Translations under genes and position numbers: made by a program
Source of the DNA: Clostridiales bacterium
GTDB taxonomy: Bacteria; Bacillota; Clostridia; Oscillospirales; Oscillospiraceae
Reading direction: 5' to 3'
NCBI GenBank assembly: GCA_022786995.1
Contig: JALFUW010000025.1
Span: 1-64,000 of the forward strand
DNA: 64,000 bases
Shown: positions 21,469 through 50,753 of the stretch, piece after piece
How positions within the stretch are numbered: position 1 is the first letter of the stretch
How the letters are laid out: each line of letters begins with the position of its first letter
Notes under the pieces: model-generated
What the model was told of the DNA's origin: nothing
What the model saw: the letters and a program-made list of their open reading frames with translations, nothing else
The model's database searches: none

Positions 21469-21611
21469 TATGATCACTCACAATACAATAGGAATACCAA
21501 GATTATATTGTTTGGAGCTGCAAACGTCAAGCAGAAAGATTTCATTTGCAAAAGAATGTACGGAAACCTGTTGACAAGCTGCGAAAAATATGCTAACTTA
21601 AGCGAGAAATG

Positions 21612-21830
21612 TGTAGATGGGGAGGTTCCGCTTCCTGCGCCGAAAAGAGAGTACCCGGCTGGTGTGAGGGTATGCGGTGAAAAGCGGATGGTCGCCCCGG
21701 AGCGGACTCTCTGAATGTAGTAGGGGAGTACGGGCCTGCCCGTTACAGCGGATTGAGTGCCCGAAAGGGAATTCAGGTGGTACCGCGGAAAAATTTCGCC
21801 CTGAGTCAGCGATGACTCGGGGCGTTTCTT
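21612..21830 (+). promoter_or_regulatory. T-box leader of valS
   Basis: T-box sequence ATTCAGGTGGTACCGCGGAA (21771-21790) followed by terminator CGCCCTGAGTCA-GCGA-TGACTCGGGGCG (21797-21824) and TTTCTT; GAGAGT/ACTCTC stem upstream. 5' boundary approximate. Confidence 0.9.
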
Positions 21831-21851: not shown

Positions 21852-24497
21852 ATGGCAAGAGAATTACCGAAGATCTACGAGCCTCAGCAGGTCGAGTCCC
21901 GGATCTACCAGATGTGGCAGGACGGCGGCTTCTTCCATGCGCAGAAGGATGAAAGCAAGAAGCCTTTCACCATCGTAATGCCCCCACCAAACGTTACCGG
22001 CCAGCTGCACATGGGCCACGCCATGGACGCGACATTGCAGGATACCCTGATCCGCTTCAAGCGGATGCAGGGCTATAATGCCCTGTGGGTTCCCGGTGTT
22101 GACCATGCCGGTATCGCCACCCAGATCAAGGTAGAGGAGGAGCTGCGCAAGGAAGGCCTGACCCGCTACGACCTGGGCCGTGAAAAGTTCCTGGAGCGTG
22201 TCTGGGACTGGAAGAATAAGTACGGCAATCGGATCGTGGAACAGCAGAAGAAGCTGGGCGCCTCCTGCGACTGGGACCGTGCCCGGTTCACCATGGATGA
22301 GGGCTGTTCCAAGGCTGTCCGGGAAGTGTTTGTTTCCCTGTATGAAAAGGGCCTGATCTACAAGGGTAGCAGGATCATCAACTGGTGCCCCCATTGCGTC
22401 ACCGCCCTGTCTGATGCCGAGGTGGAATATGTGGACAAGCCCGGCCACCTGTGGCATATCCGCTACCCACTGGCAGATGGCACCGGCGAAGTGATTGTGG
22501 CCACTACCCGTCCTGAGACCATGCTGGGCGACTCCGGCGTGTGCGTCAACCCCGATGATGCGCGCTACAAGGATATCGTCGGTAAGAAGGTCATCTTGCC
22601 CCTAGTGAATAAGGAAATACCCGTTGTTGCCGACGACTATGCCGAGATGGAATTCGGCACCGGCTGCGTCAAGATGACCCCTGCCCACGACCCCAACGAC
22701 TTTGAAGTCGGCCTGCGGCACAATTTGGAAGTTATCCGGGTTCTGGACGACAAGGGCGTTGTCAACGAGTTTGGCGGTAAGTATCAGGGCCTTGACCGTT
22801 ACGAAGCCCGCAAGCAGATCGTCGCGGATCTGGAAGCCGGTGGCTATCTGGTGAAGGTGGAGGACTACTCCCACAATGTGGGCACCTGCTACCGCTGCCA
22901 TCAGGATGTTGAGCCCATCATCTCCGCCCAGTGGTTTGTGAAGATGAAGCCCCTGGCAGAGGAAGCCATCCGGGTCGTGAAGGAAGGGGAGACGAAGTTT
23001 GTCCCTGATCGCTTCAGCAAGACCTATATGAACTGGATGGAAAATGTCCGTGACTGGTGCATTTCCCGTCAGCTGTGGTGGGGCCATCAGATCCCCGCCT
23101 GGACCTGCGCCGACTGCGGCCACATCACCGTGTCCCGGGAGGATGCCTGCAAGTGTGAAAAGTGCGGCAGCACCAACATCACCCGGGAGGAGGATGTGCT
23201 GGATACCTGGTTCTCCTCTGCCCTTTGGCCCTTCGAGACTCTGGGCTGGCCTGAAAAGACCGAGGATTATGACTACTTCTATCCCACGGACGTGCTGGTC
23301 ACCGGCTATGACATTATTTTCTTCTGGGTTGCCAGAATGATCTTCTCCGGCTGTGAGCACACCGGCAAGACCCCCTTCCACACGGTTCTGATTCACGGCC
23401 TTGTTCGGGACAATCTGGGCAGAAAAATGTCCAAGTCTCTTGGCAACGGCATCGATCCTCTGGAAATGATCGATAAGTACGGCTGTGATGCCCTGCGGAT
23501 GAACATGGTCACCAGCAATTCTCCCGGCAACGACATGCGTTTCTACACCGAGCGCTGCGAGGCCATGCGGAATTTCGCCAATAAACTGTGGAACGCTTCC
23601 CGCTATGTTTTGATGAATCTGGGTGAGGACGCTGTCAACGCACTGCCTGCGGCTGAAAAGCTGGAAATCTCCGACAAATGGGTGCTGTCCAAGCTGAACA
23701 CCCTGATTGCCGAAGTGACCGAGAATCTGGAAAAGTACGAACTGGGCGTGGCTGTACAGAAGGTGTACGATTTCATCTGGGATACCTACTGTGACTGGTA
23801 TATCGAGCTGACCAAGGCACGGCTGTATTCCGAGGATGCCGACCGAAAGCAGACCGCCTTGCAGGTGCTCGTCTACGTTCTGGATCAGGTGCTGCGGCTG
23901 CTGCATCCCTTCATGCCCTTTATCACCGAGGAAATCTGGCAGAGCCTGCCCCATGACGGCCCGGCTCTGATCGCTGCCCAGTGGCCTCAGTACCGGCAGG
24001 AGTTGGCCTTCAGCGCGGAAGAAAGCCACATGGAGTCCGTTATGGAAGCCATCCGTGCCATTCGTGCCCGCCGTACAGAAATGAACGTTCCTCCCAGCAA
24101 AAAGGCTGCCCTGTATATCCTGACCAGCAAGCCTCAGATCTACGCCGAGGGCGAGGGCTTCATCCAGAGACTGGCCTACGCGGATACCGTGACGCTGCTG
24201 AGCGCGGAGCCGGAGAATCTGGACGGCATGGTGACCATCACCACCGCGGATGCCAAGCTGTATATTCCCATGGGACAGCTGGTGGATGTGGCGAAGGAGC
24301 TGGAGCGCATCGCCAAGGAGCTGGCGGATGCCAGAAAGTTCCTTGCTTCTGTGGAGGGGAAACTCGCCAACGAGAAGTTTGTTTCCCGAGCCCCGGAGGC
24401 CGTTGTGGAAGCAGAACGCCAGAAGGCACAGAAGACCCGGGATCTGATCGCGCAGCTGGAGCAGAGCGAAGCTGCCATGCAGAAATTGTCCAATTAA
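21852..24497 (+). CDS. valS: Valyl-tRNA synthetase
   Basis: PPPNVTGQLHMGHA (HIGH-type) and KMSKSLGNGIDP motifs; ValRS length. Confidence 0.97.
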   Translation: MARELPKIYEPQQVESRIYQMWQDGGFFHAQKDESKKPFTIVMPPPNVTGQLHMGHAMDATLQDTLIRFKRMQGYNALWVPGVDHAGIATQIKVEEELRKEGLTRYDLGREKFLERVWDWKNKYGNRIVEQQKKLGASCDWDRARFTMDEGCSKAVREVFVSLYEKGLIYKGSRIINWCPHCVTALSDAEVEYVDKPGHLWHIRYPLADGTGEVIVATTRPETMLGDSGVCVNPDDARYKDIVGKKVILPLVNKEIPVVADDYAEMEFGTGCVKMTPAHDPNDFEVGLRHNLEVIRVLDDKGVVNEFGGKYQGLDRYEARKQIVADLEAGGYLVKVEDYSHNVGTCYRCHQDVEPIISAQWFVKMKPLAEEAIRVVKEGETKFVPDRFSKTYMNWMENVRDWCISRQLWWGHQIPAWTCADCGHITVSREDACKCEKCGSTNITREEDVLDTWFSSALWPFETLGWPEKTEDYDYFYPTDVLVTGYDIIFFWVARMIFSGCEHTGKTPFHTVLIHGLVRDNLGRKMSKSLGNGIDPLEMIDKYGCDALRMNMVTSNSPGNDMRFYTERCEAMRNFANKLWNASRYVLMNLGEDAVNALPAAEKLEISDKWVLSKLNTLIAEVTENLEKYELGVAVQKVYDFIWDTYCDWYIELTKARLYSEDADRKQTALQVLVYVLDQVLRLLHPFMPFITEEIWQSLPHDGPALIAAQWPQYRQELAFSAEESHMESVMEAIRAIRARRTEMNVPPSKKAALYILTSKPQIYAEGEGFIQRLAYADTVTLLSAEPENLDGMVTITTADAKLYIPMGQLVDVAKELERIAKELADARKFLASVEGKLANEKFVSRAPEAVVEAERQKAQKTRDLIAQLEQSEAAMQKLSN

Positions 24498-24946: not shown

Positions 24947-25374
24947 AATTCGAAAACTATATGATTCTGGATTTTCCGAGCAAGTCCAGCAATGAAGCCT
25001 TTGCGAGATCTGCGGTTGCGTGCTTTGCGGCCCAAATGGATCCTACGTTGGAGGAGCTGGGGGACATCCGTACAGCGGTGTCCGAGGCCGTTACCAACTG
25101 CATCGTTCATGCCTATCCTGAAAAATTGGGTAACATTACCCTGCGCTGCCGCATTCTCAAGGATAATGTGCTGGATATTGTGGTAAAGGATAGGGGCGTC
25201 GGAATCCCTGACGTGGAACAGGCAAGAAGGCCCTCCTTCACCACAGGCGGAAACGAACGAAGCGGTATGGGATTCACCATCATGGAGAGCTTCATGACCA
25301 ATCTGGATATCTCATCCAAGCCAGGTAAGGGGACCACGGTACATATGCGTCGAAAACTGCAGCGCCGCCAATGA
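24943..25374 (+). CDS. spoIIAB: Anti-sigma F factor
   Basis: HATPase motifs ISEAVTNCIVHAYP-type, DRGVGIPDVEQA, GMGFTIMESFMT. Confidence 0.93.
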   Translation: MKFENYMILDFPSKSSNEAFARSAVACFAAQMDPTLEELGDIRTAVSEAVTNCIVHAYPEKLGNITLRCRILKDNVLDIVVKDRGVGIPDVEQARRPSFTTGGNERSGMGFTIMESFMTNLDISSKPGKGTTVHMRRKLQRRQ

Positions 25375-26075
25375 GTGTATCGGAAGAACTGATTCACCTT
25401 GCCCAGGCCGGGGACAGGGATGCCGCGGAAAAGCTGGTAACAGAAAACTCCGGCCTGATCTGGGCAGTGGCAAGACGTTTCCTCGGCAGAGGCGTGGAGA
25501 CAGACGATTTGTATCAGCTTGGCTGCATGGGATTCCTGAAAGCGGTAGATGGATTCGATCTGTCCTTCGGAACACAGTTTTCCACCTACGCGGTGCCGAA
25601 AATCGCCGGTGAAATCCGACGTTTTTTGCGTGACGACGGAGCTGTGAAGGTATCGAGGAGTATTAAAGAGCGTGCCGCTGTTATCCGCTCCTGCCGCAAC
25701 CAGCTGGCAGCCGCGCTGGGAAGGGAACCGACAATTCAGGAGATATCGCGGCAGACCGGCATTTCGCCGGAGGATATCGCGCTGGCCGAAACGGCAACCG
25801 CTTCTACGGAATCCATCCAGCAAGAAAATGGGGAAGAGGGCTTTTCTCTGGAGGATGTTCTGACTGATACAGAATCAGAAGATCAGATGCTGGAGAAAAT
25901 CGCACTGCGTCAGGCAATTGCGAAGCTGCCCCAGCGGGAACGCTCCGTTGTGGAGCTTCGGTACTTCCACAGTCTGACCCAGCAGAGAGTTGCGAAAATT
26001 CTGGATGTCAGTCAGGTGCAGGTATCCCGCATTGAAAAAAGGGCCATTGCTCTGCTGCATGAAATGCTGAACTAA
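25371..26075 (+). CDS. sigF: Sporulation sigma factor F
   Basis: DDLYQLGCMGFLKAVDGFD, YAVPKIAGEIRRFLRDDG; sigma-70 region 2/3/4. Confidence 0.95.
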   Translation: MSVSEELIHLAQAGDRDAAEKLVTENSGLIWAVARRFLGRGVETDDLYQLGCMGFLKAVDGFDLSFGTQFSTYAVPKIAGEIRRFLRDDGAVKVSRSIKERAAVIRSCRNQLAAALGREPTIQEISRQTGISPEDIALAETATASTESIQQENGEEGFSLEDVLTDTESEDQMLEKIALRQAIAKLPQRERSVVELRYFHSLTQQRVAKILDVSQVQVSRIEKRAIALLHEMLN

Positions 26076-26239
26076 GGAAACGCTGATTAAATCGTCTGCG
26101 GCTGGGCGGCGAATCTTTTGCCCCTTCCGTGCAGTTCTGACAACGGGAAATACATACAGTATTCCTCCATTTTCAGAACTTTCGGCTGGGCCAAAATCTT
26201 CTGCCGCCAGCTCTTGCCGATTTATTCAGAGCTTCCCTA
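26073..26239 (-). mobile_element. 167-bp palindromic MITE-like element, copy 1
   Basis: TA-bounded imperfect palindrome TAAGGAAACGCTGATTAAATCG...CGATTTATTCAGAGCTTCCCTA; homologous on the minus strand to 49819-49985. Confidence 0.75.
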
Positions 26240-26309
26240 AAACAAACACTTTACCTTTTGAGAAAAATGCGCTAAAATGGTCGCATCTTATATTTGGATT
26301 GGTGCGACT

Positions 26310-28706
26310 ATGAACGAACAACTGGATGAACGTTTTTTAACTGCCCGGCGCCGCTATATCGAGAGCCAGTTTTCTCAGCTCAATGAAATGCAGCGTCAGG
26401 CGGTGATGACGACGGAAGGTCCGCTTTTGCTGCTGGCTGGCGCTGGAAGCGGAAAGACGACGGTTCTCATTAACCGAATCGCAAATCTTATGCGGTTTGG
26501 CCGCGGCAGCGACAGTAATGAGATTCCTGCCGATGTTTCTGAGGATGACGTTGCTTTTCTTGAATCCCTTGAGCCGGATGGCGAATATGACCGCTGGCGT
26601 GCCGAGCATCTTTGTACGGTGGAACCGGCGGCACCCTGGAGCATTCTGGCGATTACGTTTACCAACAAGGCGGCAAATGAAATCCGCGACCGCCTGTCAT
26701 CCCTGCTGGGCCCCGGTGCCCAGGATATCTGGGCAATGACCTTCCACTCCGCCTGCTGCCGGATTCTTCGGCGGGACATTGAGATAATGGGCTATACCCG
26801 CAGCTTTACCATCTATGATACATCGGATTCCGAGCGGATCATGAAGGATATCATCAAGGACATGGGCCTGGATGATAAGACCTTCCCGGCAAAATATGTT
26901 CTTGGAGCCATCAGCCGGGAAAAGGATAAGATGGTGTCCCCGGAGGAAATGCTGGAACGGGCGGAAGCCAGCGGAGATCTACGGGCTTTGCACATTGCCC
27001 GATGCTATGTAAAGTATCAGACCCGTCTGAAGGACAACAACGCGCTGGACTTTGACGATATTATTTTCGTGACGGTAAAGCTTCTGCAGGAGCATGAGGA
27101 TGTCAGGCAGTATTATCAGCGCAAGTTCCGATATGTACTGGTGGACGAGTATCAGGATACCAACCATATGCAGTATCTTCTGACCTCTTTGCTGGCGGGC
27201 GGGTATGAAAACGTCTGTGTGGTTGGCGACGATGATCAGAGCATCTATCGATTCCGCGGCGCTACCATTGAGAATATTCTGAACTTTGAAAAACAGTACC
27301 GTGGCTGCCGTACCATTCGGCTGGAACAGAACTATCGTTCAACACAGTCGATTCTGGACGCGGCGAATGCGGTGATTTCTCACAACCTCGGGCGGAAAGG
27401 AAAACGTCTGTGGACATCTAACGGACGTGGAGACCCCATTACCCTGTACGAAGCCAGCGACGAGGGAACGGAAGGCAATTATGTCGCCAGCCGCATCATA
27501 GCCGGTTCCCGGGGCAAGAATTTCAAGGACTTTGCAATCCTTTATCGAACGAACGCGCAGTCCAATGCTCTGGAATTCGCGCTGAAACGAAACGGAATTC
27601 CGTATCGCGTCATTGGCGGCACCCGCTTTTTTGACCGGGCGGAAGTCAAGGATATGCTGTCCTATCTGTGCGTTATCAACAACCGCACCGATGATCTCCG
27701 GCTGCGGAGAATTATCAACAATCCGCCCCGGGGGTTGGGCGCCAAGACCATTGAAACAGCCCAGCGGCTGGCGGACGCGGCGCATAAGCCGCTGTATGAT
27801 ATCGTGTCCGATCCCTATTCCTACGCACCGCTGGAAAAACCGGCTATGAAGCTGCTGCAATTCTCCGCGCTGATCGAGGAACTGGCGCAGATGCTGGACG
27901 ACGGTATGAGCCTGCCTGATTTCTACGAGGAACTGCTCATTCGTTCCGGCTATGTGGATATGCTGAAGGCGAAAGATACAGAGGAGAATAAGACCCGGCT
28001 TGAAAACGTCCGTGAATTGAAATCCAGCATTCTGTCCTACATGGAGAACACAGAAGCGCCGACGTTGGCAGGATTCCTTGAGGAAATTGCCCTGTACACC
28101 GACTTGGAGCAGTACAACGACAGCGATGACGCAGTTGTCATGATGACCATGCACTCGGCAAAGGGTCTGGAATTTCCCAATGTGTTCCTTGTTGGCTTCG
28201 AGGACGGCCTCTTCCCGGGTATGCGCGCCATCGGAGATGCCGAGGAAATGGAGGAGGAACGGCGGCTGTGCTATGTTGCCATTACCCGGGCAAAGCAGTC
28301 GCTGACCATCAGTTACGCCCGGCAGCGAATGCTGTATGGCCGCACCTCTGCGTCGCTGCCTTCCCGGTTTCTGAAAGAAATCCCGGAAGAATGCCTGATT
28401 CGCAAGGGCGGCTACCGCCGCGCGGCCCCGGAATACGGCGGCTATGTTGATTATTCCCAGAGCCGTCCATCACCTGCCCGTAAACCCCAGCCACGGTTTA
28501 CAGGAAGCTCCGTCGGCACATCCGCGGGGGTCGCGATGCTGGAACTGAATGCCGGGGATATGATCCAGCATGCTGCATTCGGCCGGGGTATGGTGCTGTC
28601 CGTTATGAAGATGGGCGCAGATGCACTGCTCGAAATTGCCTTTGACGATATCGGCACCAAAAAGCTGATGGCGAAAACGGCCTCAGCCCACATGAAAAAG
28701 CTGTAA
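26310..28706 (+). CDS. pcrA: UvrD/PcrA-type ATP-dependent DNA helicase
   Basis: LNEMQRQAVMTTEGPLLLLAGAGSGKTTVLINRIA, VDEYQDTNHMQ, VGDDDQSIYRFRGA. Confidence 0.95.
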   Translation: MNEQLDERFLTARRRYIESQFSQLNEMQRQAVMTTEGPLLLLAGAGSGKTTVLINRIANLMRFGRGSDSNEIPADVSEDDVAFLESLEPDGEYDRWRAEHLCTVEPAAPWSILAITFTNKAANEIRDRLSSLLGPGAQDIWAMTFHSACCRILRRDIEIMGYTRSFTIYDTSDSERIMKDIIKDMGLDDKTFPAKYVLGAISREKDKMVSPEEMLERAEASGDLRALHIARCYVKYQTRLKDNNALDFDDIIFVTVKLLQEHEDVRQYYQRKFRYVLVDEYQDTNHMQYLLTSLLAGGYENVCVVGDDDQSIYRFRGATIENILNFEKQYRGCRTIRLEQNYRSTQSILDAANAVISHNLGRKGKRLWTSNGRGDPITLYEASDEGTEGNYVASRIIAGSRGKNFKDFAILYRTNAQSNALEFALKRNGIPYRVIGGTRFFDRAEVKDMLSYLCVINNRTDDLRLRRIINNPPRGLGAKTIETAQRLADAAHKPLYDIVSDPYSYAPLEKPAMKLLQFSALIEELAQMLDDGMSLPDFYEELLIRSGYVDMLKAKDTEENKTRLENVRELKSSILSYMENTEAPTLAGFLEEIALYTDLEQYNDSDDAVVMMTMHSAKGLEFPNVFLVGFEDGLFPGMRAIGDAEEMEEERRLCYVAITRAKQSLTISYARQRMLYGRTSASLPSRFLKEIPEECLIRKGGYRRAAPEYGGYVDYSQSRPSPARKPQPRFTGSSVGTSAGVAMLELNAGDMIQHAAFGRGMVLSVMKMGADALLEIAFDDIGTKKLMAKTASAHMKKL

Positions 28707-49672: not shown

Positions 49673-49818
49673 ATATCTCGTTGCCGTCTCTCAACGACCA
49701 ACATATGATACCACAGGTTCTTGTAATTGTCAATAAGAAAAAACTTGAGTTTCGGTATATCTTAGTCCCCAAGTTATCCACAGGAGAAAAACCACCAAAC
49801 AAGAAAAGCCGAAATAGT

Positions 49819-49985
49819 TAGGGCAACACCGCATAATGGGACAAGGAGATTCGGTGAGAGATTTTGACCCGAGCGAAAGTATGAAAAATGCGGGAATACT
49901 GGATGTATTTCCCATTTTTCATACTGCACGATTGGGGCAAAAGATCCGCCGAAGCCCGCAGTGCCCATTGTACGGTGTTGCCTTA
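49819..49985 (+). mobile_element. 167-bp palindromic MITE-like element, copy 2
   Basis: TAGGGCAACACCG...CGGTGTTGCCTTA termini bounded by TA; core GGGAATACTGGATGTATTTCCC; homologous to 26073-26239. Confidence 0.75.
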
Positions 49986-50753
49986 GCATTTTTTGTTCTT
50001 TTTGTAAATTATGTTCAAGCCTTTCAGCAGAAGATCCTTCTCAAGTATGATCTCCCGCTTACACAGCGGTGTAATGAACTGCGCCAGACCGCCAGTGGCA
50101 ATCAACGTGCAGCGGTGTCCAAGCTCTTCTTCCATCCGCTCAACAAGTCCGTCAATCATTGCAGCGGTTCCGTACATCATTCCGCTGCGCATACAGTCCA
50201 CCGTATTTTTACCAATGACCTGTTTCGGCTGGTCAAGGCTGATTCCCGGCAGCTGCGCCGCGCGGCTGGTCAGTGCGTCCAGCGAGACCCGGACACCGGG
50301 GAAAATCACGCCGCCCATATACACATTTTCTGGCTCCACCGCTTCAATGGTGGTAGCGGTACCCAGATCCAGCAGAAGCAGCGGCGCTTTGTATTCAGCC
50401 AATGCGGCAACCGCGATCACGATCCGGTCGCTGCCCACCTGAGAAGGCACATCCACATGGATGTTAAGGCCCGTTTTCAGTCCGGGGCCCACCACCATGG
50501 GCTGCTTTCCGATGATCTTGATCACGCCGGTTCGTACGGAGTTAAATACCGGCGGAACCACCGAAGAAATAATGCAGTCCTTGATATCCGACCGATCTAC
50601 ACCATATGCTTCCAGCATGTTTTTGATCTCCACGCCGTACTGATCCGATGTTCTGGTGCGGTCGGTGGCGATACGGGCTTTGAAAAGGATTTTATCGTCA
50701 CGAAAGCAGCCAATTACAAGATTGGTATTGCCGATATCAATGGCCAGAAGCAT
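49983..50753 (-). CDS. coaX: Type III pantothenate kinase
   Basis: MLLAIDIGNTNLVIGCF, LLLLDLGTATTIEAV, ATGGLAQFI. Confidence 0.95.
   Translation of the reverse strand: MLLAIDIGNTNLVIGCFRDDKILFKARIATDRTRTSDQYGVEIKNMLEAYGVDRSDIKDCIISSVVPPVFNSVRTGVIKIIGKQPMVVGPGLKTGLNIHVDVPSQVGSDRIVIAVAALAEYKAPLLLLDLGTATTIEAVEPENVYMGGVIFPGVRVSLDALTSRAAQLPGISLDQPKQVIGKNTVDCMRSGMMYGTAAMIDGLVERMEEELGHRCTLIATGGLAQFITPLCKREIILEKDLLLKGLNIIYKKNKKC

Follow-up and report, generated by a model that had tools for sequence, protein, structure and literature searches.

The window, namely, the whole stretch of 64,000 nucleotides analyzed here (contig JALFUW010000025.1 of a Clostridiales bacterium), contains two homologous palindromic elements, in each case at the place given in the original prediction. 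Copy 1 (positions 26076-26236, minus strand) lies between a spoIIA-type operon and a pcrA/uvrD-type helicase gene (26277-28706, plus strand), the latter being the downstream neighbor and lying outside the element. The upstream neighbor is sigF (25371-26075, plus strand), assigned on the basis of a TIGR02885 match (E = 2.3e-80) that falls below the curated cut-off of that model; spIIAB, encoded just upstream of sigF, scores above the cut-off of its own model. The sigF coding sequence is intact, with copy 1 having inserted at its stop codon. Indeed, the TAA stop (26073-26075) is part of the left 4-bp target duplication, CTAA (26072-26075), as had been anticipated for the TA at this edge of the element, and a second CTAA is found on the other side (26237-26240). 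Copy 2 (49822-49982, plus strand) is flanked by the 4-bp duplication TTAG on the left (49818-49821) and again on the right (49983-49986), and is adjoined by a type III pantothenate kinase gene on the minus strand, the stop codon of which lies in CTAA, the complement of the TTAG at 49983-49986. Elsewhere in the window, a T-box leader (21605-21806; Rfam RF00230) is found upstream of a valyl-tRNA synthetase-like gene at 21852.

Each copy is 161 bp long. The value of 167 bp and the TA boundaries proposed earlier reflect the inclusion, at each end, of three bases belonging to the target duplication, with the TA corresponding to the center of the YTAR target. Both copies begin with GG and end with CC, and present imperfect terminal inverted repeats of the form GG(A/C)A...T(T/G)CC. 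Copy 1 bears what are termed type-A ends (GGAAGCTCTGAATAAATC / GATTTAATCAGCGTTTCC) and was detected by cmsearch on the minus strand with E = 2.9e-40, while copy 2 bears type-B ends (GGCAACACCGCATAAT / ATTGTACGGTGTTGCC) and was detected on the plus strand with E = 7.8e-37. The apical hairpin of copy 1 (26146-26165) reads GGAATACTGTATGTATTTCC on the minus strand and corresponds to a GGAAUACU-NNN-UGUAUUU(C/U) motif that is conserved in the alignments. The hairpin predicted for each window copy has a folding energy of approximately -90 kcal/mol, corresponding to z-scores of -10.7 and -12.3 relative to dinucleotide shuffles, with none of 200 shuffles folding as well.

The host genome contains 16 full-length copies of the element as well as shortened ones, each without a transposase gene, in agreement with the proposal of a multi-copy, MITE-like mobile palindrome. 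Of 99 copies, 61 were found to lie between perfect 4-bp repeats, for the most part TTAG, TTAA, CTAA, and CTAG (consensus YTAR). Among 143 copies with perfect repeats, TTAG was seen 43 times, TTAA 29 times, CTAA 17 times, and CTAG seven times. The middle two bases are almost always TA. In a sister species with a SigF 91% identical to that encoded in the window (locus L231, genome G249), an empty site, as sought in the original prediction, was found, with CGCTAAAACAAATACTTTACC, containing a single CTAA and no element, appearing in place of the AACTAA-[161 bp]-CTAAAACAAACACTTTACC arrangement of the window. A closer sister (SigF 93% identical) carries the orthologous sigF copy. The window sequences are copies of a non-autonomous IS5-type MITE that inserts at YTAR sites with duplication of 4 bp.

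YTAR duplication is known for IS5 (PMC10359306), and the combination of YTAR duplications and GG-starting ends therefore indicates the IS5 family. The sole PF01609 transposase of the host genome corresponds to NCBIfam IS5_4 (NF033581, E = 1.4e-105), and the host IS5_4 element (L322) is 1133 bp long, with ends GGCAATACCGCACA/GGCAACACCGCACA and TTAG on each side. A 1150-bp IS5_4 copy in another genome (G136) is flanked by CTAA on each side. Type-B ends, as in copy 2, are borne by IS5_4 copies in three genomes (G000, G136, and G245). A full-length IS with ends matching those of the MITE, also sought in the original prediction, thus exists for type B; none with type-A tips (GGAAGCTCTGA) was found among the IS5_4 loci of the genus or viral contigs, the genomes being drafts that may lack one. 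Nothing obvious is common to the IS and the MITE beyond the terminal repeats. Judging by these ends, the element is most likely mobilized in trans by a DDE transposase of the IS5_4 family. Mobilization by an IS630/Tc1-mariner system with TA duplication, as originally put forward, would account for the nearly invariant TA at the center of the duplication, but the duplication comprises 4 bp, the empty site holds a single CTAA, and the transposase of the full-length IS with matching ends belongs to IS5_4, leaving that assignment with almost no probability.

Core-less derivatives of 65-80 bp were also identified, several with flanking repeats, which suggests that transposition itself does not require the fold in cis. 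Derivatives shortened to 65-128 bp and without the apical core occur at seven own-genome loci (L215, L216, L217, L218, L219, L220, and L221), and several of these retain matching flanks, such as the CCAG on both sides of a 78-bp copy in L215. A hybrid copy (L182 / L003; G000:C96:1890-2051) combines a type-A left end with a type-B right end, has TTAA on both sides, and presents a poorly pairing outer stem; either two copies have recombined, or an element has moved with ends that differ. At two loci (L227, G000:C62:63400-64000; and L065), two elements abut and have one target duplication in common. Stop codons were considered as preferred targets. The neighboring stop codon lies inside the duplication in 44 of 143 copies (31%), yet because stop codons likewise account for 26% of non-genic YTAR sites in the window (p = 0.22), insertion there is not special, and stop-codon targeting was rejected as being accounted for by the location of YTAR. 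Nor is any antisense preference at stop codons claimed, the ratio being 25 to 7 in a first set and 7 to 5 in a second.

A search with a covariance model, constructed using 53 copies, detected the element in 81 of the 201 family genomes, corresponding to 55 of 106 genera. Among the named hosts of the element are Faecousia, Avoscillospira, Flavonifractor, and Pseudoflavonifractor. In a class-wide sample, matches were obtained in 27 of 288 genomes. Most of these class-level matches retain the apical hairpin, GNAATAC...GTATT, together with a frame that is palindromic or resembles an IS; a few of the weakest (L294 and L295) look like chance. Since the apical motif belonged to the pattern used in one search, its conservation in that set is by construction; the motif is still conserved in copies that the covariance model found without the motif pattern. 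Searches of Rfam 15 at gathering and relaxed thresholds, using the window and 20 further loci, returned no family covering the element and nothing credible, and phage and plasmid collections yielded no match. Six apical-pattern matches were obtained in viral contigs, of which two are element-like (L350, identical in sequence to the bacterial copy L140; and L353) and four look like chance. Full-length elements are found on two IMG/VR viral contigs (L353 and L376), possibly reflecting phage carriage or host DNA in the viral set.

Several unusual relatives were also encountered. A 219-bp copy (L143:3319-3537) appears to hold some 60 extra bases in the apical loop. A distant relative (L299:865-1655) is the immediate neighbor of a gene for OLE RNA (Rfam RF01071, E = 4.1e-121). 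Within a different family of the class (L293 and L297; genomes G318 and G286), the apical hairpin is found within an element of about 300 bp that has different inverted ends (TAGGCATAAGG...). Finally, many contigs of Avoscillospira stercorigallinarum (L053, L057, L063, L081, and others) start or stop inside an element, which suggests the presence of many near-identical copies that break the assembly.

A single long hairpin spans the entire body of the element, and does so on just one of the two strands; its purine-rich internal loops and its apical loop are fixed. In an alignment of 106 copies fitted to the model structure, a procedure that favors pairing, 95.8% of cells are paired and two-sided changes are seen in 40 of the 54 stem pairs, a number reached by no shuffle; the compensatory change in the inner stem noted originally between the window copies holds. 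The covariation score of this alignment is 0.415, as compared to 0.151 for shuffled and 0.048-0.085 for slid controls, supporting the earlier view that the folded form is under selection. An unfitted MAFFT alignment of 53 copies likewise revealed compensatory changes in 34 of the 54 pairs. The conserved internal loops comprise GCAAG opposite CGCAG, AA opposite GCA, and GA opposite GA. The last of these, a tandem G-A mismatch, is retained in most copies (85 and 94 of 104), with the loop being complementary in only 6.7% of cells.

The two strands of the element are not equivalent. In 273 of 274 distinct copies, the better fold is that of the strand corresponding to the plus strand of copy 2 (means of -81.7 vs. 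-64.8 kcal/mol), and the same is true of all 13 of the distant relatives listed. Changes from a Watson-Crick pair, counted on a tree of 104 copies, led to G-U in 108 cases and to A-C in 59 (p = 2e-4), where equality is expected under strand-symmetric mutation, although derivation of the structure on the better-folding strand could have introduced a bias that accounts for some of the G-U excess. The same preponderance is seen on internal branches (26 vs. 8) and when only pairs found from both strands are counted (70 vs. 37 cells). In gaps between co-directional genes, 26 copies are in the sense and 25 in the antisense orientation. Because orientation relative to genes is thus near random, strand-biased mutation arising from transcription is an unlikely cause of the excess. 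Together, the better fold of one strand, the G-U excess, and the conserved non-complementary G-A loop show that strand-specific selection acts on a folded single strand. That strand is probably RNA.

These observations also bear on the possibility that the DNA palindrome alone matters, with the compensatory changes arising by arm-to-arm template switching (quasi-palindrome correction) rather than by selection on a folded strand. Symmetric differences at adjacent opposite positions (4/158 and 5/157) in one orthologous pair are what such a process would leave behind, and two-sided changes on a branch were adjacent 13 times as compared to the 6.9 expected, a value within the permutation range, which extends up to 16. 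Few two-sided changes, however, form adjacent runs, and whereas correction would remove loops with mismatches, the tandem G-A loop is fixed and non-complementary, as are other loops. Moreover, template switching predicts no difference between strands. The strand asymmetry hence already disfavors template switching as the sole cause, and this explanation is considered unlikely.

The time at which selection acts was addressed by comparing branches of the tree. Changes that break a pair account for 28 of 152 pair changes (18%) on internal branches vs. 141 of 326 (43%) on terminal ones (p = 7e-8), in a parsimony-based comparison in which the difference could be exaggerated by errors in the alignment and by the length of terminal branches. 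As terminal branches include time after insertion, the fold appears to be kept in spreading lineages and lost in settled copies. It thus seems, on statistical grounds, that the fold is maintained while a lineage propagates and that this constraint is relaxed post-insertion. In the only orthologous pair compared directly, namely, that at sigF, 47 of the 54 pairs are intact in the sister copy and 51 in the window copy, with two pairs being compensated and seven being broken in the sister copy, which fits loss of the fold following insertion.

Decay on terminal branches does not, therefore, point to a host function at each site. Were the element a host regulatory RNA, such as a 3' UTR stabilizer or terminator maintained by the host wherever it lies, its frequent presence at gene ends, often with the neighboring stop codon inside the duplication, would be readily understood. 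That stop-codon fraction is, however, close to the non-genic YTAR expectation described above, orientation is near random, pairs are broken more often on terminal branches, and comparison with sister-genome copies revealed a shared location for only one of the own-genome insertions. Host maintenance is accordingly deemed quite improbable.

A folded single DNA strand fits the same data as does RNA. In such a scenario, the hairpin would act as single-stranded DNA, for example, on the lagging strand or in a transposase-bound transposition intermediate, with RNA being irrelevant. Double-stranded ends are used in IS5-type DDE transposition, and core-less short derivatives with flanking repeats exist, both of which argue against this idea. 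At the same time, DNA also forms G-T wobbles and tandem G-A pairs, and both the near-random orientation relative to genes and the tracking of the fold with propagating lineages would be compatible with a DNA form. Indeed, such a form was raised by Narunsky et al. for the MRSC-65-2 motif (PMC11109978). A role as single-stranded DNA is considered somewhat unlikely.

Taken together, the explanation that best accounts for these findings, to which a probability of roughly 60% is assigned, is that of an IS5-type MITE moved in trans and carrying a selected fold on one strand, probably an RNA that serves the element. An IS5_4-family transposase would move the 161-bp body through its IS5-like terminal inverted repeats into YTAR sites, and read-through from neighboring promoters would then yield the folded RNA strand. 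Near-random orientation implies that about half of all insertions would lack neighbor-driven transcription of the better-folding strand, which weakens the read-through idea. The folded strand would most likely benefit the element and not the adjacent host gene; it might, for instance, bind a protein or render new insertions tolerable. A more specific proposal, namely, that a cut-and-paste IS5-type MITE depends on an RNA step, in which a one-strand hairpin RNA, conserved across Clostridia and recognized by a transposase or host protein, raises the chance of spread of the element, appears improbable.

Some features of the element recall other small repeats. ERIC, RUP, and Correia/NEMIS are intergenic palindromic repeats of 100-170 bp that are often transcribed; they resemble the present element in size, palindromic nature, and intergenic location but differ in having TA target sites and other sequences. 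REP/BIME sequences, palindromes of 20-40 nt associated with RAYT transposases and lacking target duplication, were ruled out by the 161-bp length and 4-bp duplications. IS5-family MITEs share with the present element IS5-type terminal repeats, the 4-bp YTAR duplication, and a related full-length IS in the genome. We know of no conserved interior structure in ordinary MITEs; in the present element, the loops of the interior are conserved and its stems covary over a large number of genera. A conserved RNA structure in bcr1 was reportedly described by Okstad in 2004 and by Klevan in 2007. The bcr1-bcr3 repeats of the Bacillus cereus group are MITE-like, intergenic, often located in UTRs or operon gaps, transcribed, and similar in size to the present element (PMC3446304). 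They differ in that bcr1 is associated with a TTTAT motif (PMC6542083) as opposed to YTAR flanking repeats, and in being confined to one species group with no link to IS5. The MRSC-65-2 motif, one of the mobile/repeat sequence candidates (MRSC) of Narunsky et al. (2024; PMC11109978), likewise consists of a single long covarying stem found in dozens of copies per genome, with inconsistent gene orientation and a presumed transposase-driven spread. Its stem carries a repeated UYCCGG that, by inspection, is absent from both window copies, whereas for the present element a duplication, an IS family, an empty site, and a strand bias have been established. In addition, a palindromic class has been listed among candidate RNAs from the human microbiome (PMC8040213). 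A literature search on MITEs in Oscillospiraceae or Faecalibacterium uncovered nothing relevant.

Structured mobile repeats are, therefore, already known from bcr1-bcr3 and the MRSC class, including MRSC-65-2 (PMC3446304; PMC6542083; PMC11109978). The present one is IS5-borne, strand-specific, endowed with fixed non-complementary loops, and widespread in one family. Reports of structured repeats usually describe them in one of two ways, as MITEs or as orphan RNA motifs, and the present element has both properties. Its IS family, target site, and an empty site have been identified, and roughly half of the genera sampled in one family of gut bacteria carry it. The element is well suited to asking which kind of selection preserves RNA-like folds in selfish DNA, and the covariance model can be used to annotate many unexplained intergenic hairpins in gut Clostridia.
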